Part shown: in pieces, positions 18,812 to 56,146 of the stretch | Numbering within the stretch: position 1 is the first letter of the stretch | How the letters are laid out: every line of letters begins with the position of its first letter | Assembly: GCA_022539475.1 (NCBI GenBank) | Contig: VCMS01000107.1 | Coordinates: 47,475 to 111,474, forward strand | Length of the DNA stretch: 64,000 bases | Source: Gracilaria domingensis | Taxonomy: Eukaryota > Rhodophyta > Florideophyceae > Gracilariales > Gracilariaceae | Direction: 5' to 3' | Program-made: the position numbers and the translations under genes | Notes under the pieces: generated by a model | Told to the model about the DNA's origin: nothing | Database searches by the model: none | What the model saw: only the letters and a program-made list of their open reading frames with translations

Positions 18812-19762
18812 GTGTTTCACGACACACTTATGCCGCTGTTTGAGACTTACAGATCGCAATGCAACTATGGGAGTCCGTATCGAAAGAGCGAGGACAAGCG
18901 AGGGAGGAAGCCACTTCTGTCTTCCACCGCTTTGCTTGCACTTGCGTTGCTTTACATGAAAACGTCCTCAAGCACAGCACAGTTGTCTGTCTTCTTTGGT
19001 CTAGTGCCGTCATTTATAACAGTATGGCATGAGTACTCATTACTAGTACTGCAGAAAGCACTGCGTAGTACGGATGCTTCTTCTTTCGGCATAAGATGGC
19101 CCAATGTAAATGAAATAAGACAGTCTGCGACTGTAATGGGAAACAATCGTGGCTACGGTCCACTTCTTCGCGGCGTTTTTGGCATAACAGATAGGGGGAG
19201 GTTCAAGTGTCAAAACTACAGAGACACTAACCTACAAAACGCGTTTTACGAAGGATATACGCAACAGGAGGAAGTCACTATCCTTTTTGTCTTTAATTTC
19301 TTTGGGGAAATCATATATGTTGCTATAAACTTTCCCGCCAGTTGGCATGACAACAAGTTAGCCGGCGTTTTGGGCCTTTACTATCCTAAGATCAGCGATG
19401 AAATGACTCCCCCAGGCATGGCCATTCTCGGTGACTCAGCGTTTGTAAACAACGCCAAATGTACGAACGCAAAGATACTGCGCGCACGGAAAGCAGACGA
19501 AACCACTGACGTCCCGAAGTCTTCCGAACTGGCTGCAATAGATGTGAGTATGCAGCGCATAATGCCAAGTGAACGACAGAGTGCAGAGAGGGGCATAAAG
19601 GAGTTAAAGAGCCCATTTAAACGCCTCAAGACAGTACTACTGAAGGACGCAAAGCGGCGAAGCATGATTATTGAGATAGCGTGTCATTTACTGAACGGAA
19701 GAACGCGTCTTATGGGCCGCATTCAGATCGCAACCACCTACTTTACCGCTCCTGCACAATGA
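18812..19762 (+). CDS. Harbinger transposase (DDE_Tnp_4)
   Basis: An uninterrupted frame of about 316 residues; the first ATG is at 18830, and an upstream in-frame extension is possible, so the start is uncertain. It has an N-terminal helical region with the KRGRKPLLSSTALLALAL segment seen before the catalytic core. The likely DDE triad is Asp127 (FGITDRGR), Asp208 (AILGDSAF) and Glu259 (SAERGIKELK). Between them lie the FYEGYTQQEEVTILFVFNF and PASWHDNKL segments (Pro-x-S-x-H-D), which are diagnostic. The enzyme cuts and rejoins the element at short A/T-rich target sites. All three catalytic residues are present, so the protein may be functional if the Myb-like partner is supplied from elsewhere. 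Confidence 0.9.
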   Translation: MFHDTLMPLFETYRSQCNYGSPYRKSEDKRGRKPLLSSTALLALALLYMKTSSSTAQLSVFFGLVPSFITVWHEYSLLVLQKALRSTDASSFGIRWPNVNEIRQSATVMGNNRGYGPLLRGVFGITDRGRFKCQNYRDTNLQNAFYEGYTQQEEVTILFVFNFFGEIIYVAINFPASWHDNKLAGVLGLYYPKISDEMTPPGMAILGDSAFVNNAKCTNAKILRARKADETTDVPKSSELAAIDVSMQRIMPSERQSAERGIKELKSPFKRLKTVLLKDAKRRSMIIEIACHLLNGRTRLMGRIQIATTYFTAPAQ

Positions 19763-26813: not shown

Positions 26814-26828
26814 CCCTTTTGGGACTGA
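26814..26828 (+). repeat. piggyBac left terminal inverted repeat
   Basis: CCCTTTTGGGACTGA directly follows the TTAA at 26810-26813 and matches the right end exactly in reverse complement. Confidence 0.92.
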
Positions 26829-27048
26829 GAATTGTTAACGCTAGTCAGATAGCGTTACGAACGATCCAATCAGAGCGCAAGTGAATACTTAAACATGTGG
26901 ATGACAGAGCAGCTCTGATTGATTGAAATCGACGTTTGGTTTCAATCAACAATCAGGTGCACTCTACGTATTTTGTAAAGAGTGCAGCTGCACTGCAGCG
27001 GTGAGGTGAACCTCAATGCTATGACCACTCCCAACGTCATGCACCAGT

Positions 27049-27585
27049 ATGGACGACGATGGAAACAAAACTCCAATACTTCAAACTTCACCGTGCAAAC
27101 CCACACCAAAACAACCAGAGACCTTCAAGTCGGAGAAAGACAGCCCAAAATCCTCATGTGTTGTTTCTATAGAGCGCTCAAGAAATGCTGTCACAGTTTT
27201 TCACACTTCTCTCACCAACCGTGCGTCACTTCCAAACAAATCCTCCGATGAAAGCGCCCAATGCCAGGTCTTCTGTAATACAGTTCTTGCCGTGACCCCC
27301 GCAAATGAAGACGTTGCGTGCCATAAGTGCGGAGGAACGCCCTGCTATTGGCTCCAGTTTGGAGCTGCAGTAGTAGAAAAGACATCAGTCGATTATCCTG
27401 TCTTGGGCGTACCAAACGGGAGCAATAATACGGCCCGTAAAACGGCCTACAAAGCCTACGTATACGAACGCCACGGTTTCCTACGATCCGGTAACCGAGT
27501 TCAACTTCCGCAATGTGTGATTGAAGGTATTCGAACAATCTGGCCTGATGAAAAAGGGGCGTATATGGGATTCAAAGAAATTTAG
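27049..27585 (+). CDS. piggyBac-borne protein with a P2RX7_C-like Cys-rich domain
   Basis: 178 residues. The first 80 are Lys/Ser/Thr-rich and probably disordered. The C-terminal 90 residues carry CHKCGGTPCYWLQFG and then a conserved-looking stretch RKTAYKAYVYERHG, NRVQLPQCVIEGIR and DEKGAYMGFKEI. The order Tyr-x-x-Tyr, Leu-Pro-x-Cys-Val, Ile-Arg and Gly-x-Tyr-x-Gly-Phe-Lys resembles the intracellular C-terminal domain of P2X7 receptors, a Zn-binding module also found on transposon proteins. The frame is inside the piggyBac ends and convergent with the transposase, so it probably travels with the element. Its role is unknown; DNA or RNA binding is a guess. The resemblance was judged by eye. 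Confidence 0.6.
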   Translation: MDDDGNKTPILQTSPCKPTPKQPETFKSEKDSPKSSCVVSIERSRNAVTVFHTSLTNRASLPNKSSDESAQCQVFCNTVLAVTPANEDVACHKCGGTPCYWLQFGAAVVEKTSVDYPVLGVPNGSNNTARKTAYKAYVYERHGFLRSGNRVQLPQCVIEGIRTIWPDEKGAYMGFKEI

Positions 27586-27587
27586 AT

Positions 27588-29580
27588 TTACTTATGTAAT
27601 ACTTTGGCGGTTGCGAGCGTTGTGGTTACTTTGTTGTATCGATTTCTGTGTTGCTTGGAGGATAGAACTTGTTCGGAAGATAAAAGTGATTCATGTACAT
27701 CAGGACGAATGTTGCGAAGCGATTCCTTGTTGTGAAAAAGAGAAAAGCAGTTCACGTGGAACCCTTTTTTGCACTTACTACAAGAGTACATTGTATAGAT
27801 TCCATGATGCCCAGCCTTTCCAAGAGTACACAGAAGGCACCGTACGCTTTTGCGTCCTTTGTCTCCAACAGAATATGCTCTCTGCTATGCATCGCATTGT
27901 TCGATACAGTAAGGGCCCCGCTCTCTTCCATTGTGCAAATGGTGTTTAGTGCAGCACGTTGCTGCTTGTATTCGACATGTTCTGCGACGAGCTGCTGGAT
28001 GATTCGGTGCTTCATCTGCATAACATCAATAATCGTAGTCCTCTCCTGCGCAATAGCATTTAGAAGTGCATGTGCATTTATAACACTTGCATCGAGAACA
28101 AAAGAAAGCAGACTCATTGGCACTCTCCTCTCTTTCCGTACAGTGGCCGATGTAGATCTGAGTTGATCAAACCGGTCAACTCCATTCATAAAAAGATTAT
28201 ATGCTACAATCACTGATGGAACTTGGAGCGTCGTGCGTGTCATTGACTCTTTGCCAGTCCACCTTTCTAAACGGGCCAGTCCATGGACGCATCTCACTGC
28301 TTCAACTTTGGGAGTCTGAATTCTCGTCGAAGGCGTATCGGCTAAATCGTTGGTATAAAACGTTACGATGGCGCGGTCCTTGAAGACTATGAAGCCGGCG
28401 TTACGGGCTACTTTCGGAGGCGCATTTGTGACATCGCTGCGTTCAAATACCTGAACCAGGCACCAATCTCCTCGTCTTGCGCTCTTCATGTTTTCCATAG
28501 CCTCTTTCAGAGCAGGGCGATTGAGTCCATCGATGTTATTGAAGCGAACCGTTCCAAGAACCTTACACTCCCCATCACTTAGAATATCCAGTTGGTGTGC
28601 CAACACATGGCGCGTGTAGAAGTTGTCCATCACTATCAATCTTCCATTCGTCGGTGTGGCGTGTAGCTTTGTTTGGTGTGCCACTTGTGTACACCAGAGT
28701 GCCGAAGCCGATGATTTAGCCACCAAGTTACCATCTATCTTGCGATTTACTGCACTACGTAGGTCCCGAAACACATTCGTATACCTCTGCACCGGGCTTT
28801 GGCCAGAAGTATTCCCAGAGCCGTTGTCCTGAAGACTATGCAAGTACGCATGCGCCCATTCTACCACAGCATAAAACCTAATGCCAAACTTCACTGGTTT
28901 GGATTTAATATACGAGCGCGCTTGAGTGCGCCCTTTGCACCTGATTGTATTCTCGTCGAGAGTACTAACACCAACAGGAACTGCTGGGGTAGCCGCATTC
29001 CTCGCATAATGTTCCAACAACTGGCGATTGTGCCCTAATGGGTCCGACACCGCTACGTCATGTTCGTAAGCGGGGTAGATACGCAAGGCTGCACGAATTG
29101 ATAAAAAAGAATCCCGGGACATGACCCTCTTGAAGAATGTTATTCCCAACAAATCTGAAGAGCTCCAGAAGTCTTTCAAGCGGTTCAAGCGGTGCACGGA
29201 TGTTGCGAGCTCGAGACCTAGATAGGCCATAAGCTGATCCATTCGAAGTGGCTTGGTCCTCTTTTCTCGTTTCTTTAGCTCTGCACTCGGCCACAAACGA
29301 ATACAGTTGAGACACGTATTGTTGAGAAACATCTGAAAGAGGCCGAATTCTCTCTTGTGTGCGTACGCCCTTCTGAGGAGAGCATCCTTAGCTAAGTGTA
29401 ATCCACTTCGCTCACGCCATTTTGCGCAATATGGGACGTTCTCGTATATATTGTGCTCTTTAGCTGCAGCCAATGCTGTGACTACAAATTCCTCAGAATC
29501 GACACTGTCCCAAAACAGTTCTCCAACAGTTTCAAAATTGCATTCATGTCCACCAGTGTTTGCGCTGTGAGAAAGACCTA
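27588..29580 (-). CDS. piggyBac transposase (DDE_Tnp_1_7), C-terminal frameshift
   Basis: A minus-strand frame is open from about 29580; no ATG is visible near its start, so an upstream exon or a non-ATG start is likely. Counting from 29473, the catalytic Asp residues are Asp173 (STLDENT), Asp283 (LIVMDNFYTRHV) and Asp433 (NGVDRFDQLRS). They lie in the three blocks typical of piggyBac. The first frame runs to 27752. The Cys-rich C-terminal finger is in the next frame (RCLLC, then YSCSKCKKGFHVNCF, ending at 27588), so a one-base shift near 27850-27865 separates catalytic core and finger. The finger normally binds the terminal repeats. If the shift is real the protein lacks it; if it is a sequencing error the gene is intact. 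Confidence 0.88.
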
Positions 29581-30229
29581 GAATAGTGAGTAGAGTTTAC
29601 TTTTGCTGCATACTGTGATTGCTTTAGAAATCTTCGAAACGAAACGAGAAAGCGCTTGAGAAGTTGAGCGCATCAAAGCGCTAACATTTTCATGCAATTG
29701 CCATCGCACTGGGAATCAAAATGCTTGAGAAAGGTTTGGAAAATTTGTGAGGTTTTTAAAGTGCTGAAGAAGAAAGCGCAGCAGGAAAGTAATCGACAAA
29801 GGCTCTGCGAATATGACCAAGGTAGAGTGAACGGAGTGTGAAGCATGGTGGTCACTGAGTTTGGCGGTCTGCTGGTCAGTTTGGGATAGCTGTGTGTCTG
29901 GCGTTTACTGTACACGACCGCAACCATACCACAAACTCATGAGCGCAGATTGAGATTAAGATCTCATGCAGGCCTTGTGGTAAGAAACTTGTTGCACATA
30001 GTAGACGACAGGTTTTAATGAAAGGAGTTCCCTCCAAAGAAGAAAACAACAGTAGTAACTGGATGTATCAGGAAGCGATTGAATTGTACCCAATAAGACG
30101 AGTTTATCTTAAAGCTATTGAGATAGACTTTAAGTAAACCGAACAAGTAGCGTCGCGATATCCAAAGGTTTCCTGTCGTTACCCAATAAGACTGCACGCT
30201 TAAAAAGCTATTCTGCTGGACTTAAGGGA

Positions 30230-30244
30230 TCAGTCCCAAAAGGG
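30230..30244 (-). repeat. piggyBac right terminal inverted repeat
   Basis: Exact reverse complement of the left 15-bp repeat, followed by TTAA at 30245-30248. Confidence 0.92.
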
Positions 30245-30347
30245 TTAAGGTGGATACGAGGTCGCAGATATGCATCGGCAAGAAGTAATAGTTGAACACG
30301 TGTCACACTCAAACCACCATTCAAATGGTAATATCCCTAATACTGCC

Positions 30348-30369
30348 AAGGTACAGTATACTGAACCTT
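30348..30369. promoter_or_regulatory. Subterminal palindrome 1 of the 3.9-kb element
   Basis: A 22-bp palindrome, AAGGTACAG, TATA, CTGAACCTT, with one mismatched base pair. A candidate transposase-binding site, inferred from its position beside the left terminus. Confidence 0.6.
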
Positions 30370-30399
30370 GGCTATTTTTGGAAATTGCCATTTCTTCCT

Positions 30400-30421
30400 A
30401 AGGTTCAGTATACTGTACCTT
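30400..30421. promoter_or_regulatory. Subterminal palindrome 2 of the 3.9-kb element
   Basis: The same 22-bp palindrome with the mismatch on the other side (AAGGTTCAG, TATA, CTGTACCTT). It starts 52 bp after copy 1. Confidence 0.6.
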
Positions 30422-30642
30422 ACAGCCTGATTGAGTCTCCCTAAGATGACTCAATTATCGATTAATGACTTTCTTATGCGTACAGCAAAGCCCGCATCCG
30501 GAATAATCTGCCTTTTTGGATTTCAGAACAAGTTGAACGAGAGCTCAACGCTACCTGTGTCCTGAGCAACAGGGTATTTCTTCCACAACAATTTGCCAGA
30601 CCCAAAACCCCGCCCCAACCATTCTAAGGTCTTCCAAAGACC

Positions 30643-33600
30643 ATGAGCAGCACTCCTCTGACCGATACCGACGAAATCGAACACGTCTATGCACGATTCC
30701 AGCACAGTCGAATACAAGAGCAACATCTTGATCATGATAGCGATCTTGATGTTCCAATTGCGAGGCTAAGAAGCAAAAATGCACCAGAAGCGCACATTAG
30801 ATCTACTCCTCGCATAGCAAGGCAATAAAGTTCACCTCGACATGCCGGAAAGAAGACAGGTCGTTGCCAGATTGGCCGCAAACGAACCACCTCGCGCTCG
30901 GCTTTCATGAAAGGAACTGCAGATTGGAGTTTTGAAGATTTGGAAACCACAGTAATTGATATTGAATCTACCTTCACCCAGACCTTGATGAGTGAACGAG
31001 CACGATTGTTCTGTCTTTCTGTAGTATCAAATCTGGAAACGCAGCTTAACGCGCGCGTTTTACCCGAAAGACGACTAAGCTTTGTTTCATTGTTAATTGA
31101 ACCTATCCTGAAGAAGCACATTGAGTGGTTGAACGAGTTGATTCTATTACGAAATCTTGAATGTGATTCCCTTGGACTTCACGACGGGTACAGGTTCTTG
31201 GCGGTTTTGTTATTTTCTCATTGTACTGGCTTTAGCTTCGAGAAAACTATTTCTATCATGCACGAAAGTGGTATAAGTCCACCTACTCTTGCACGGGTCC
31301 AGTTCATTACAAAGAACATTATGGCGTACTCTCCAACAATACGGAATGTCAGCCGTTCAACTTGGCTGTGTCAGAGAGACCAAACACGACAGTTAACGGT
31401 TTTTGAAAACTCTACTTTTGAGGAAACTCGTAAGGTTTTCTTTGTGCCACTACACATGTTTGCGACACTTGACGACGACCTTTATGGGACGAGGGCAAAA
31501 GATAACCAAGTCAAGACGCTCAGTAACCGAAAAGCAGATGGAGAGGGACATGCAGCTGATGTAATTGCAGATGCATTGCTGCGTGTTGTTTTAGGAGTGC
31601 GATTCAAGCGGCGAGGTGAGTCTACGATGCAAGCGGTGGACAAACTTGTAGATCAGCTAATTGACGGAAGAGGTGAACAGTCATTGGGCGGTTTATTACT
31701 CACCGCCGATAGAGGATACGGTAAGCGGGAGCTTTTAGAGATCATGAAGGAGAAAGGTCTCAGTACGATCTGCGTAATGCCGGAGCATCTTATTAAGTGT
31801 CATCCTTTTGTCGGAGCGTCCTTCTTGCGCCCTGGAAGCGACAAATACGATCAAGATGGAGATGCTTCAGATTCTGAGAGTGCATCTGCGCGCGAGAATC
31901 CAAATGACACTGAACCCAGGCTGGCGGGCACACCATTTGTGTTAAACGATTCTGCCTTAATGGGCTCCGCGGCCTACTATGCCCGTTCTAAGACGACTGG
32001 AAAAAAACGAGCAATTCGTGCTGCTGCCATCCGAGAGCACGGAACAGATAAGTTTGCAAATCTCTTAAGGTTTCTATACGACATTCCAGAAGACCTACGA
32101 AACAGACTGCATTGTTGGATTGCGGTACCGAAAGGGGAAACGTACTGCTCTCACCTATTCATGGGTCTGAAGTTCGAAACTCCGCTCGCCTCTCTAACTG
32201 AAACAGCGCTGAAGCTTTCTTGTACTGTGCTAACAACAGCTCAAAGATGTGCGGATTGGTTTGTGCTGCGGCAGTTTAGAGTAACTGCAACCTTAGCGGG
32301 CACGGCTTTATTGCAGAGGAACACTGTTAGGGCACCTCTCGGAATGACTGCTCGGACGGCTGTGACGAACCAATGCCCAAGAGAGTGGGTCAACAAATTT
32401 GCAGCATCGTGGTTCAGTACCAAGCGAAGCACAGAAGCTATGCTTCGCGGAACTCTTAACGAAAAAATGGTTCTATCCGCACTGAAGGAGTTACCGTACG
32501 TAGCAGATCTTTTTGAGGTGGGTTTACTCGCTGCAAAGGACAAAGAATACTTTGCGTTTTCTCCAGATGGCGTCGCTCTGGTAGATTTAGAGGAGCTTCA
32601 AAAACAAATGAAAGGAATAGACAAAGTTGGCTGCAGAGCAGTCACCGGAATTAAAACGAACAACAGGTGGCTGGCTCTGGCGTCTGTCGAAATCAAAACG
32701 CGGGTGAGCAGGAATACTTTAGAGTCTGTCGTTGGTCGAGCTACTGATGAACTGCTCGTGGGAAAGTTAGGTTCACCGTTGGTGAGAGAGTACGTTCCCG
32801 CCGAACACATGGGACAAGTAATGCATCAGATTGTTGTTCTAAATGTGAACATGTGTCCTTATGTTTGTGTTGGGGAAACCGGGATGATCTAAAAGGTTTT
32901 GATTACTTGTGACGACCAACAAACAGATATTCTTATCAAAGAACTCAGTTGTTTTGTCGAGCGTATTGTTTGCTGGGCACATGAGAAAGAGCCGACCATA
33001 CCTGACTTTGTTGATAATGAGCTGCGAATTATTGTGGCAAGGAGACTGTCCTTTTGGAGTGTGATTAATCAAAGAGTGAAACAACAAGGACCGTTTCCTC
33101 CCATCAAAGTATTCAAACATGCGTTGCAATCGTTATACTCAAAGACAAAAAGTGGGGTTGATGGATCTACTCAGACGAGGGCAATTTTGAGGTCGGCTAC
33201 TTCGCATTTTAAGTGGGAGCAAAAATTGGTTACTCAAGTATTGAAAACGTTGGTTGTCAATGGGTTTATCGCGTAGCGTATGACAGAACGTAAGGATAGA
33301 CTGGAGTCTCCCGAACTGTTTGGAAATCTTGACAGTTACCGTCATGCTTTAAATTGTGTTCAATCCTTTGCTGACTTTATTCATCATCTATCTCGAGAGA
33401 TGGTTCAGTACGCAGACTCTATTGAACGCAATCACTGCAATGTTGAAGAAGAACATCACAATGTAAGTGGAAACGAAATCACAAGGCTTAAGCGCCTTGC
33501 ACGAAGAAAAGAAAGGCATAGATGGAAAATTTTCAACCATGGAGATGGTTTTAAGCTTCGTTTACACGTTAGTGGACATGAACAGATACAAAAGAAGAAA

Positions 33601-33738
33601 GCCACGTCGTGCGTCTTATGCGGTTCGAAGAAGCCGGAATGGCGTGTTTATCGATCAACATATCATTGTTCACATTGCTCTGTTGCGTTGTGTGTTCGTC
33701 TTTATCAGTCATTGAAGAAAAGCTGCTGGTCGCTTTGA
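30643..33738 (+). pseudogene. DDE transposase fused to a YqaJ-like PD-(D/E)XK nuclease and zinc ribbon, three in-frame stops
   Basis: One reading frame of about 1030 codons spans 30643-33738. It is broken only by TAA (30826-30828), TAA (32890-32892) and TAG (33274-33276). Counting from Met at 30907, a transposase-like core has Asp189-191 (TLDDDLYGT) and Asp268 (LLTADRGYGKRELL), followed by HPFVGASF and later CADWFVLRQFRVTATLAG. A nuclease domain follows: an NEKMVLSAL helix, SPDG with Asp554, and VEIK with Glu595 and Lys597. That is the D-x(n)-E-x-K signature of YqaJ/lambda-exonuclease-like folds. A later QVMHQIVVLNV helix is also typical. The C terminus has a zinc ribbon (CVLCGSKK, CSHC) like the piggyBac finger. 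The fusion suggests an element coding both for transposition and for DNA-end processing. The exact DDE family and the third acidic residue are uncertain. Confidence 0.7.
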
Positions 33739-33978
33739 CATTCGCAGCGTGTATTGCAAAGAAGATCTGTACCACTGCCCAACGGATGGTCGAAGAAAAA
33801 TGAGGGTAATCAGCATTCTAACAAAGAAGATAGCTAAATGTGCTTCTTTCTAAGATTAGATTTGAGAACGACATTAAAGAAGATAGATTGCTTAAAGCGG
33901 TTTTCGCAAGTTAGTACGTGATTTCTGAAATGACGAGAAGTAATGAGATAACAATTCAATCTACAAACTGAGAATTAC

Positions 33979-34000
33979 TAGGTTCAGTATACTGTACCTT
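33979..34000. promoter_or_regulatory. Subterminal palindrome 3 of the 3.9-kb element
   Basis: The same palindrome (AGGTTCAGTATACTGTACCT) on the right side of the element, about 230 bp from the right end. Confidence 0.6.
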
Positions 34001-34181
34001 AGCCTGTTTTTGAGCTTCTGAAGAGAAGAAGAACTGCTTCAAGGAAAGTGTGATATCTACAGAAGTACTTGGTTTCAACACTAGAATTTTCCTGACAGCA
34101 AAGAAGACATTATCAGCATTACTTCAAAGCTTCGATAAACAAAACGGTTGCATTCTTGTGCTCCTTTACCACAAGAGAAGT

Positions 34182-34203
34182 AGGGTACACTATACTGTAC
34201 CTT
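34182..34203. promoter_or_regulatory. Subterminal palindrome 4 of the 3.9-kb element
   Basis: A diverged copy (AGGGTACACTATACTGTACC) about 25 bp inside the right end. It mirrors copy 1 at the left. Confidence 0.55.
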
Positions 34204-34249
34204 AAAATACGGTATTAGGGATATACCATTCTCTTTCTTGCTGATAAAG

Positions 34250-34393: not shown

Positions 34394-34455
34394 GATTCCA
34401 GATCCCTCATGTCAATACTGCCCTTGCGCAGTACTGACATGAGGGATCTGGAATC
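34394..34455. repeat. 62-bp hairpin
   Basis: Two 28-bp arms (GATTCCAGATCCCTCATGTC and onward) are reverse complements with one mismatch around a 6-base loop CCTTGC. It lies in non-coding sequence between the ATTCAAA cluster and the GCC/GCT tract. It resembles the palindrome at 16642 in design but not in sequence. Confidence 0.93.
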
Positions 34456-39779: not shown

Positions 39780-41129
39780 CTACGAAAACGATCGGCCGGA
39801 TGGCAGCCACGACGCGATCCGTGGTGAGATACCATAATACAGCAAGCCCCTTAGCGGTTCAACCGAGAGTTTGACTTTCACTAGATAGCGCAGCGGTGTA
39901 AGAGCAGAATGTGCTAGGATGGGGTTAAGAGCCATTGTATACGTTGAGGCGATAATGCCATTAACTACAATGTCTCCATGAAGAGTGTGTGGCGCTACAA
40001 GACCTCTACTTTTCACGTATCGCAGTGTTCGCACTCGTGAGGGACCTTCCACTGTCCGCAGCATGTCGCCTTCCCTTACGACATATGCGGCTACTCTTTG
40101 ATTGTTGGCATAGATGTAATGACCTGGGGTGAGCGTGATTGTCTGGTTATCGTCAGAGGTAATTTCGATGAAGTTGTACACGCCATGAACCTCCTTGTGG
40201 GTGAATAGGAAAACTTTGCTTATTGCCTTCTCAGAAACCAAGACTTCATGCCCCGCCTTGAGTCTGGAAAGAGGTAGAGAGGTTCCATTACGCATGCGGA
40301 CTGTGGAAGATGACGAGAAGCAAGCCCCTGCTGGCTCAGGTGTTGGCACTGGAGCTGTCGAGGGAGAGGGCTTCTTCGATTTGGATGGCCTCGGAGTGGG
40401 AGATGATGAAGGCGATATGGAGCGACTCGGTGCAGCAGAAACCGACGATGAAGCTGAAGGAAAAGCTTGTTGCGCGTTGGAGTTCAGTGACAGAGAAGAG
40501 AAAGACGGAAACAACATTCGGTCTACAGCGACAACAAAGCCGTTACGTGGTTGAATAGTCGGTTGGCTGGGTGGTGCAAAGGCGATCTCAGCGTAAGGAA
40601 ATCGGGGATCTTTGTGGGACAAGCGCGTGACTACTAGATCCAGGTTCTGTTCAGCAAATGTACTGAACTTGAATGAACCGAGTTCAAGAATATCTTGAAA
40701 CGAATAGGCTCCGGGTACAATGTGATATTTCAACCAAAGCTCAAGTGCTTGAGTGGCGTTCTCGAAGCGCTGAAGCCAATTCGTTTGTAGTGAATAAAAA
40801 GCATGTTGTTCTGTGTTGACGTCGCTTATTACGAACGAAGAGTTATCGGCAAGCGCGATTACATCATTGGCGGTCTGCGAACATCCCAAATCATTGGGCA
40901 AGAAGACAGTGATGGTCTGAGTGTCTAGAATGGATTTGACAGCAGGTACAGTTTCGACCAAAGAGCGAAAGACGTCAAAGTCCCATGGATCAGTGTCGAA
41001 TCGATTGACCGCATCGTCTCCATGTCCGCGAATAAGATCCCAGACCGAAGGGTCGGAGTCGCGTTCTATTCCGTTGCATACGATGAATGTGAGGTGCAAG
41101 ATAAGGAGCACAAGTATTGACGGTGGCAT
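39780..41129 (-). CDS. Secreted fasciclin (FAS1) - Hint protein 1
   Basis: The frame is open from 41240, but the Met at 41129 is followed at once by a signal peptide (PPSILVLLILHLTFIVCNG), so I choose it; this gives 449 residues. A FAS1 domain spans about residues 49-208 (ITVFLPND, then LKYHIVPGAYS, then VVAVDRMLFP). A Ser/Pro linker of about 60 residues leads to a Hint domain starting with Cys270 (GACFSSS). It has the T-x-x-H motif Thr334-His337 (LTPGHYIYAN) and ends near VAPHTLHGDIVV and IASTYT. Hedgehog-type Hint domains use the initial Cys, Thr and His to cleave themselves at that Cys. FAS1 domains act in adhesion or matrix. So an adhesive secreted domain may be released by autoprocessing; that is inference. 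Residues needed for the first thioester step are present. Confidence 0.88.
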   Translation of the reverse strand: MPPSILVLLILHLTFIVCNGIERDSDPSVWDLIRGHGDDAVNRFDTDPWDFDVFRSLVETVPAVKSILDTQTITVFLPNDLGCSQTANDVIALADNSSFVISDVNTEQHAFYSLQTNWLQRFENATQALELWLKYHIVPGAYSFQDILELGSFKFSTFAEQNLDLVVTRLSHKDPRFPYAEIAFAPPSQPTIQPRNGFVVAVDRMLFPSFSSLSLNSNAQQAFPSASSSVSAAPSRSISPSSSPTPRPSKSKKPSPSTAPVPTPEPAGACFSSSSTVRMRNGTSLPLSRLKAGHEVLVSEKAISKVFLFTHKEVHGVYNFIEITSDDNQTITLTPGHYIYANNQRVAAYVVREGDMLRTVEGPSRVRTLRYVKSRGLVAPHTLHGDIVVNGIIASTYTMALNPILAHSALTPLRYLVKVKLSVEPLRGLLYYGISPRIASWLPSGRSFS

Positions 41130-41240
41130 GACGACGTCGGAATGACTGAAAGATGAGAGCCCGGAAGTTTTCACTACATGGCGACGAAAAACGACCTCTG
41201 TCCTGGGATCCAGACGGCACGGAAAGAGCGAAAAGCACAC

Positions 41241-54007: not shown

Positions 54008-56146
54008 ATGGTTTCCATATCTGCGATACTCTGTTTCCTAACCAACATTTTCCTTTTGGTAAACGTATTAGGAGTTCCTCAACCGCCTCAAAATGACTGC
54101 AACACGAAAACAATTCTTGACTTCATAGTCAGCGAAAACTTATCTCCTGCACTCAACTTCGACAACAACGGGTCCAATTTCAACATTCTAGCGAATCTAC
54201 TTGCTGCTGGAAATAGCGAGGGAATTTTGAACGTCAGCACCCCCGGTGGTATCACTTTCTTCGCTCCCAATGACGAAGCCATGATGCGTACCGCTCAGGA
54301 CTTAGGCTATGAAGGGGGTGGAGAATACGAAGTGTTCCAATACATAGTCTCTTTCCTTTCGAATATATATGAAAACCCCATAGAGTACCTCTTCAGTATG
54401 CCGTTGTACCATATCGTCGCTCCCAGTATGAACTCGACCGAAATCTTGAAGAAAACATCGTTCGCAACTTGGGACTCAGGACTTCCACTGGAGCGTAGTG
54501 GGCTTCAACTTATTGACCGCAACCCGGAGCTGCTAGATGCAGAGCTTGTCCCGGAAATGTTAGATATATGCGCATCAAACGGGTATATCCACGTGGTTGA
54601 TAGAGTTCTCTTTTCTGGTATCTTAAATCAAACAGCGAAACATTCAATTCGCCATGATCAAGAAGAGCCATGTTTAGACCATTCGGAAGAACCCACGTAC
54701 TCTCCAGAAGAAGGGGAGCTGGAACAAGCGAACGGTCTCTCTGAGCCTACTACTACGGCTGAGGCTTATGGAGAAGTTGAAGCAACCCCTGGAGTCAAGC
54801 AATCCTCTATTTCCACGTTGTTACGTTCTATTGTGGTGGGACCTGTTGACTTCACGAGAACAATAATACATCGCACAAGTCCGTCATCTAATCACCCCTC
54901 GACGTCGTTCGAGGTTCCAGAAGACGATTTTCAAACTGAAACAACGAGAGCGGAACTGCTTGCTTCTCCGGAACTGACTCCACTCTTGTCGCCTGGTTCG
55001 AATGGTGAAGAGTTGGTTGATTCGACATCCGTACTTCACGAAACTATTGCATACAACTTGGAATCCTCCCCGCTAGTGGATGATATCTTGTATCCGTCAT
55101 TTTCACCAAGGATTTCGTTTGCTTTCCGGACACCAGTTTCATTCGAGGAATACATACCGAGCCCAGAAGCTCAGGAAAGCTTTGTAGGACCATCAGTTCT
55201 ACCAGCACCTCCTACCTCATTCCCGTCAAGCACCTTCGTTTTCTCGACACCTGTTTCATTCGAGGAATACGAACAAGGCCCAGAAGCTCTGGAAAGCCCT
55301 GTAGAGCCATCAGTTCTACCAGCACCTCCTATTACATTCCCGTCAAGCTCGGAGCCATCAGAAACTTTCGAATCCGAAGCGACGAACATAGGCCTACTTG
55401 ACGATGAACTGAGTCCAGATTATACGGTCGCACCCTCCCCACAGGAAACCTTCGCTTTCAACGTCGGCTCTGTGCTGCACTCTCCCGAAAGCTCGATTAC
55501 AGGAGAACCAGAATCCCTGGAAGACAGTGCGACCCTCGAAGTAAGCAAAGAACCCAATTTCGAGGCAGGCGAAACGAACTTTCCCGAAGTGACAGGCATT
55601 CCCGACATTGACGGTTGTTTCCCAAGAACCGCCACCGTTCATTTATCTAACGGTAATGATATAGAAATGCATGAACTTCAAGCTGGTCATGCTGTCATGG
55701 CTTGCGAGTCAAAGTCAAGTACGGTCTATATGTTTTCGCATAGGCAAGCAATTGGTGTGCACACGTTTGTTCGCATAGAGTCCATAGACAACCATACTAT
55801 TGAACTTTCTCCAGAGCACTACATCTACGCAAACGGCCGACTAGTTATTGCTCAAAACGTGAAAGTTGGTGACATGCTTCGTACCCTCGACGGGCGGTCG
55901 AGAGTGTCTCGGATTTCAAAGGTTAACCGAACTGGGTTGTACGCTCCTCATACCATGCATGGTGATATTGTCGTTGGAAGGATTGTTGCATCGACGTACA
56001 CAAACGCTCTTCCCTACTGGATAGCACATCCCATCTTGGAAGTCATACGATTGCCAGTACGTTTCGGGTTAGCCAAAGAACCTATCGGTTCCCTTCTATA
56101 CAATGGAATCCCAAAGTCGCGGGACATCAGAAAGTGGTTCCTTTGA
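54008..56146 (+). CDS. Secreted fasciclin (FAS1) - Hint protein 2
   Basis: 712 residues from ATG at 54008 with a signal peptide (ISAILCFLTNIFLLVNVLG). A FAS1 domain covers about residues 30-205 (GITFFAPNDEAM, then MPLYHIVAPSM, then IHVVDRVLFSG). A linker of about 310 residues is rich in Ser, Pro, Glu and Thr. It contains an imperfect duplicate of about 40 residues (FRTPVSFEEYIPSPEAQES against FSTPVSFEEYEQGPEALES, each followed by PSVLPAPP). The Hint domain begins at Cys537 (DGCFPRT) and has Ser601-x-x-His604 where the paralogue and Hedgehog have Thr-x-x-His. It ends with APHTMHGDIVV and VASTYT. The Thr-to-Ser change is conservative, so autocleavage remains possible. It shares the architecture of the gene at 39780-41129 but with a much longer linker. 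Confidence 0.88.
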   Translation: MVSISAILCFLTNIFLLVNVLGVPQPPQNDCNTKTILDFIVSENLSPALNFDNNGSNFNILANLLAAGNSEGILNVSTPGGITFFAPNDEAMMRTAQDLGYEGGGEYEVFQYIVSFLSNIYENPIEYLFSMPLYHIVAPSMNSTEILKKTSFATWDSGLPLERSGLQLIDRNPELLDAELVPEMLDICASNGYIHVVDRVLFSGILNQTAKHSIRHDQEEPCLDHSEEPTYSPEEGELEQANGLSEPTTTAEAYGEVEATPGVKQSSISTLLRSIVVGPVDFTRTIIHRTSPSSNHPSTSFEVPEDDFQTETTRAELLASPELTPLLSPGSNGEELVDSTSVLHETIAYNLESSPLVDDILYPSFSPRISFAFRTPVSFEEYIPSPEAQESFVGPSVLPAPPTSFPSSTFVFSTPVSFEEYEQGPEALESPVEPSVLPAPPITFPSSSEPSETFESEATNIGLLDDELSPDYTVAPSPQETFAFNVGSVLHSPESSITGEPESLEDSATLEVSKEPNFEAGETNFPEVTGIPDIDGCFPRTATVHLSNGNDIEMHELQAGHAVMACESKSSTVYMFSHRQAIGVHTFVRIESIDNHTIELSPEHYIYANGRLVIAQNVKVGDMLRTLDGRSRVSRISKVNRTGLYAPHTMHGDIVVGRIVASTYTNALPYWIAHPILEVIRLPVRFGLAKEPIGSLLYNGIPKSRDIRKWFL

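Follow-up and report, generated by a model that had tools for sequence, protein, structure and literature searches.

A decayed PiggyBac-type transposon of the red alga Gracilaria domingensis with a predicted YqaJ-type nuclease nested in its transposase

The element and its reading frame

The DNA analysed here (the window) is a stretch of 64,000 nucleotides from the genome of Gracilaria domingensis, in which a DNA transposon occupies positions 30335-34220. Its ends were fixed by comparison with a second copy on contig C3, since the likeness between the two copies breaks off at identical bases at both ends. An earlier reading of the sequence without database searches (the sequence-only reading) had placed an element at 30326-34228; the element is there, but its true ends lie a few bases inside these positions. 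The matching terminal repeats described in that reading were borne out as 9-bp inverted repeats, CCCTAATAC on the left (30335-30343, + strand) and GTATTAGGG on the right (34212-34220, - strand), both with a boundary common to the C3 copy. The termini begin with CCC and are followed inwards by subterminal 22-bp palindromes, two on the left (30348-30369 and 30400-30421) and two on the right (33979-34000 and 34182-34203). An ATAT directly outside each end (30331-30334 and 34221-34224) was recognized as the target-site duplication by the C3 comparison and by the empty sites of a relative on contig C117.

Between the ends lies a transposase-nuclease reading frame at 30643-33738 on the + strand. It is a single reading frame, as had been noted, but not one open reading frame (ORF), being broken by three in-frame stops (30826-30828, 32890-32892 and 33274-33276). 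The longest open piece, 30907-32892, encodes 661 aa. Because of these stops the window copy is a decayed pseudogene from which a full-length protein is not possible.

The frame (all features on the + strand) opens the catalytic domain with the first part of an RNase H-like core at 31459-31779, delimited by the strands of the window ORF model and their piggyBac match. Catalytic Asp 1 (31471-31473) and Asp 2 (31708-31710) were located by the family alignment and fall in the two Asp blocks that had been read from the sequence, TLDDDL (Asp codons 31471-31479) and TADRGYGK. A beta-strand insertion domain as in piggyBac follows at 31936-32124 (model strands 344-406, piggyBac match), and the structural match of the window model extends to piggyBac residue 430. 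Next comes the YqaJ/lambda-exonuclease domain at 32227-33063, its start taken from the window model and its end, which falls beyond the stop at 32890, by projection from the relative P0001. The nuclease residues are Glu (32461-32463), Asp (32566-32568), Glu (32689-32691), Lys (32695-32697) and Gln (32827-32829), and include the SPDG and VEIK residues singled out beforehand, Asp554, Glu595 and Lys597 of the 661-aa ORF. The third acid of the transposase, whose whereabouts had been left as a point to check, was found downstream of the nuclease in the motif KTKSGVD (33160-33162), equivalent to piggyBac D447. Since the third catalytic Asp comes after the nuclease, the nuclease is nested in the transposase core between Asp 2 and Asp 3, and not appended after the transposase as first thought. 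The frame closes with a C-terminal Cys-rich domain (33610-33726), the zinc ribbon of the sequence-only reading, whose Cys codons are present and which resembles the piggyBac CRD with weak sequence support.

A canonical PiggyBac element with TTAA on both sides (26814-30244) lies 90 bp from the nuclease-bearing element, with its ORF at 27752-29473 on the - strand (PF13843, E 2.6e-38), and an ORF at 18812-19762 (+) encodes another transposase type, DDE_Tnp_4 (PF13359, E 1.9e-16). Immediately beyond the nuclease-bearing element, 34394-34455 holds an inverted repeat of 28 bp, nearly perfect, whose loop is 6 bp long. Two further proteins, encoded at 39780-41240 (-) and 54008-56146 (+), carry a Fasciclin domain (PF02469) and, after it, Hint, the hedgehog-type self-processing module (PF01079, E 8.3e-26 and 5.5e-25, respectively).

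Conservation of the nested architecture

Three protein searches recovered 59 proteins (41, then 9 more, then 9 more). Six of these carry an organism name, four from Gracilariopsis chorda, one from Chondrus crispus and one from Spongospora subterranea, that is five red algal records of six and one protist. The public database names of some members reflect one half of the protein, either 'YqaJ viral recombinase domain-c...' or 'PiggyBac transposable element-d...'. In a family alignment of 50 of the 59 proteins and the window, the expected residue stands at the catalytic columns in nearly all rows that cover them. Exceptions in the transposase triad are His for Asp 1 in P0030 and, for Asp 2, Glu in P0024 and Gly in P0033. 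In the nuclease, P0013 has Gly for the first Glu and one fragment row has His for the SPDG Asp. Of the VEIK residues, Glu is replaced by Lys in P0048, and Lys by Glu in P0005 and by Gln in P0027. P0038 has His for the second Gln, P0019 is without the SPDG stretch, and the remaining gaps are due to fragments. Among the 21 relatives of at least 993 aa and the window, the residues D, D, D, E, D, E, K and Q are all retained, except that P0006 has a gap at the first D owing to the deletion of one residue from LDDD; the nuclease set is complete in 21/21 and the window. The relatives thus carry two complete catalytic residue sets, DDD and nuclease, and their domain order is identical in all 21 cases, at 37-57% identity to P0001.

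Across 22 rows (the 21 relatives and the window), the nuclease is more variable than the DDD core, with a mean pairwise identity of 0.42 against 0.60 in the part with Asp 1 and Asp 2 and 0.55 in the Asp 3 block; the N-terminal helical part stands at 0.40. Pairwise identities of the protein parts correlate with one another (0.41 to 0.76), and trees of the DDE and nuclease parts have supported clades in common (P0012/P0016/P0043/P0042, P0002/P0008, window/P0049, P0010/P0011, P0046/P0047 and P0004/P0009). The two trees differ by a Robinson-Foulds distance of 20, and the best tree of one part is rejected by the alignment of the other part, in both directions (AU p 2.8e-5 and 0.009, from only 2,000 resamplings). 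We favor a long shared history of the two parts, which these comparisons of sequences suggest, with some exchange between them, or model error, as a possible contribution.

A search with the alignment of the DDE half, in which scoring covered the 7,999 candidates with the most words in common, gave no nuclease-less relative or pre-insertion form; the 10 proteins that it returned are short or extend into the nuclease region (P0041, P0053, P0054 and P0056). A second, deeper metagenome clade (P0041, P0052-P0056 and P0058) shows roughly 23-29% identity to the window ORF and fits the PiggyBac Pfam model better, three of the eight proteins scanned scoring above its cut-off; its members, if long enough, extend into the same nuclease region. 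An AAA_16 domain match in 2 of 21 members (P0004 and P0019) overlaps the DDE region and the following stretch and was taken as chance. No sign of viral carriage was found, as a scan of viral contigs produced 33 pattern matches and no relatives.

Structure comparison of predicted models assigned the nested domain a lambda-exonuclease-type fold. By itself the window ORF scores 17.5 bits against the Pfam YqaJ model, below the cut-off of 22 bits, and it found no match in a sequence search of the PDB, while a profile of the nuclease only retrieved no nuclease there and one weak unrelated match (E 0.94). Lambda exonuclease was absent among the 50 Foldseek matches listed for the window ORF model and present only in the VIA list.

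PiggyBac likeness, genomic copies and target site

Sequence and structure comparison identify an RNase H-like DDD transposase with the fold and domain order of piggyBac and piggyBat (PF13843; PDB 6x67, 9c0f). The third Asp lies in the GGVD motif equivalent to D447 (SGVD in the window copy), and the ends starting with CCC, the 4-bp palindromic target duplication and the palindromic subterminal repeats are likewise shared with piggyBac (PMC7351741); a C-terminal zinc domain may be a further common feature. The Cys pattern of this putative zinc domain is conserved in the family alignment, and zf-Tnp_2 was matched by 4 of the 21 members with E values no higher than 0.1; the piggyBac CRD segment aligns with the family C-terminus at -3.5 bits. 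A comparison by hhalign of the family alignment with that of five canonical copies of PiggyBac from the same genome, a shallow alignment (Neff 1.8), was not significant. Unlike piggyBac, the family has a nuclease of ~270 residues placed after the insertion domain and before the D447 helix, and a Ser at the position of N440, and this element is flanked by ATAT where piggyBac has TTAA. Since ATAT and not TTAA was found at the window, C3 and C117 copies, we place the element as a PiggyBac-type relative and not as a typical member.

In piggyBac, Y439 contacts the backbone of the hairpin loop, N440 recognizes A-2 of the TTAA loop through a base-specific contact, and V414, L416 and Y439 form a pocket for T-3, according to the structural study (PMC7351741). 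The residues that align with Y439 and N440, Y756 and S757 of P0001, are invariant in a family alignment of 21 sequences, and the insertion point of the nuclease corresponds to piggyBac 430-437, adjoining them. Between TTAA and ATAT the central TA is retained and the outer bases are changed; the Ser or the nested domain may have caused this change of target.

In the 77.9 Mb of the genome (680 contigs), the nuclease-bearing type gave 11 matches versus at least 83 for the protein of the canonical PiggyBac element. The genome search for further copies with the same ends, proposed in the sequence-only reading, found one with identical boundaries on C3 (479532-483813), 98.6% identical to the window over 2,289 columns and 95.0% over 2,009 columns; the two stretches overlap in the window because the C3 copy has an internal duplication. 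This copy is without the three stops of the window copy. Its duplication, tandem, partial and about 400 bp long (about 3405-4260 of L015, C3:478000-485500), is probably an assembly error, since the twin versions show no mismatches and differ by indels only, at 18 positions, of which 13 lie in homopolymer runs. A diverged relative on C117 (130395-134414) is represented by three protein pieces of 51, 58 and 51% identity, two with stops; it ends in CCCTAATG and CCCTAGTG, has ATAT on both flanks, and carries subterminal palindromes of related sequence in a matching layout, three of them with no more than 5 mismatches and a fourth that is partial. A fragment was found on C99.

The 22-bp palindrome is specific to the element. 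Allowing up to 3 mismatches, it was found at 9 places in the genome and its reversed control at none; 8 of these places lie within the two main copies, four in each. The ninth, an orphan at C117:38336 (positions 2337-2358 of L056, C117:36000-42000), has no recognized element ends nearby and is perhaps the remnant of an element end. The 13-bp end pattern gave 29 genomic matches at up to 1 mismatch versus 27 for its reversed control, and no MITE family was seen in the genome from the palindrome places and the end pattern.

The C117 element is inserted in a repeat with at least 39 other places. All five empty sites examined have a single ATAT while the filled site has ATAT on both sides, so that insertion duplicates ATAT, not TTAA, a conclusion that rests mainly on this relative. 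An empty paralogue of the window element's site on C116 is 90% identical across the junction (225/249 columns) and is one base short of a single ATAT; this locus likewise has no insertion at the TTAA used by the adjoining canonical PiggyBac, which served as a positive control. For the C3 copy the flank matches start at query base 35, and the flank search thus showed no empty site across the junction.

Possible roles of the nuclease and known systems

It is very probable that the element is a decayed PiggyBac-type DNA transposon encoding a single protein with a YqaJ nuclease between Asp 2 and Asp 3; the nested architecture, the catalytic residues, the termini with their subterminal palindromes in a conserved layout, and the ATAT duplication rest on evidence from sequence, from structure prediction and from genome comparison. 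The sequence-only reading had proposed that the element might bring its own end-resection step. This proposal is supported in part: the composition, nesting and conserved active sites are supported, and the resection step itself is one that we infer. In piggyBac the DDD site cleaves via hairpins and leaves the donor with 4-nt overhangs (PMC7351741). By analogy, the DDD site of this family would make PiggyBac-type breaks, with a hairpin on the transposon end and 4-nt 5' overhangs on the donor, while the zinc domain would read the subterminal palindromes. The tethered, predicted nuclease might then resect the newly broken donor ends by digesting their 5' strands, which would spoil seamless rejoining and push repair towards the sister copy, and such sister-templated repair would restore the donor element and raise the copy number. 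The presence of such an enzyme within the catalytic core suggests that the transposon carries out its own processing of DNA ends when it moves. To the whole statement, the anatomy together with a tethered nuclease that resects donor ends and steers repair, we assign a probability of roughly 0.4. Counting against it are the YqaJ score of the window ORF below the cut-off, the lack of lambda exonuclease among the listed Foldseek matches, the outcomes of hhalign and of the nuclease-only profile, the greater variability of the nuclease and the conflict between the two trees. A more far-reaching form, in which a PiggyBac-derived lineage rebuilt its excision by placing an active 5'-3' exonuclease at the hairpin and target-reading site, changed TTAA to ATAT, and had its resected breaks copied from the sister in an effectively replicative manner, must be considered doubtful.

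The nuclease could instead act within the core cut-and-paste chemistry, opening or trimming the hairpin or the 4-nt 5' flap, or cutting the non-transferred strand in the way that TnsA acts alongside TnsB in Tn7. The insertion point adjoins the hairpin-loop contacts Y439 and N440, functional TnsAB fusions exist in nature (PMC8188705), and the authors of the Dada study propose 3'-end processing for its exonuclease (PMC3706591); it is by analogy with these systems that the role suggests itself. Yet the DDD triad, the sole cutter in piggyBac, is complete in the relatives, and the piggyBac scheme already yields a 4-bp duplication unaided. No TnsA-like endonuclease is known to have the lambda-exonuclease fold. 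Such a role, the main alternative to donor-end resection, seems rather unlikely. That the nested domain is mainly an architectural module for DNA binding or oligomerization near the target, helping to choose ATAT with a dispensable nuclease activity, appears improbable; the domain does adjoin the target-reading segment, and TTAA relatives such as the canonical copy in the window do without it, but a purely structural role is made less likely by the metal-binding and catalytic residues, which are retained in every near-full-length relative at the divergence given above. Least credible by far is the chance junction of two unrelated genes that the sequence-only reading had allowed for, or their joining by assembly error: the assembly-like duplication in the C3 copy indicates that artefacts do occur in this genome, but the layout is met again on contigs C107 and C117, among red algal records and on many metagenome contigs, and is already contradicted as an accident by the identical order in 21 of 21 relatives.

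PiggyBac is a workhorse of genome engineering, favored because of its traceless excision and TTAA insertion. A natural DDD relative with ATAT insertion and a nested nuclease would make the target choice of PiggyBac testable, as well as the way in which transposons steer the repair of the breaks they leave.

The nucleases of the lambda exonuclease, LHK-Exo and YqaJ phage group are free-standing proteins, lambda exonuclease being a ring (title of PDB 1avq), whereas here the domain lies inside another enzyme. In agreement with the sequence-only reading, which knew of no family with this layout, the listings and passages searched, from freely available papers, contained no description of a PiggyBac-type transposase that duplicates ATAT and has a lambda-exonuclease-type domain nested in it. 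Two related arrangements are already known, a YqaJ gene beside a DDE transposon and an unrelated exonuclease after the second Asp. The first is ISL2EU (PHIS/Harbinger-like), a DDE transposon reported from animals that encodes a YqaJ exonuclease as a separate, second ORF beside a Harbinger-like transposase (PMC4482050, PMC9179366), whereas the present relatives have a single nested protein with a PiggyBac-type core. The second is Dada of Laccaria and Ectocarpus, in some members of which an exonuclease domain follows the second catalytic Asp within the DDE transposase; it differs in having a DEDDy 3'-5' exonuclease, not one of the lambda-exonuclease type as here, a transposase of another superfamily, and small-RNA genes as targets (PMC3706591). 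The TnsAB fusions of Tn7-like CRISPR transposons also combine endonuclease and DDE integrase in a single polypeptide (PMC8188705), but are bacterial and joined end to end, whereas the element here is nested. Taken with ISL2EU and Dada, the family suggests that exonucleases have been recruited to DDE transposases more than once, and that two of those recruitments were into the transposase itself, after its second catalytic residue.
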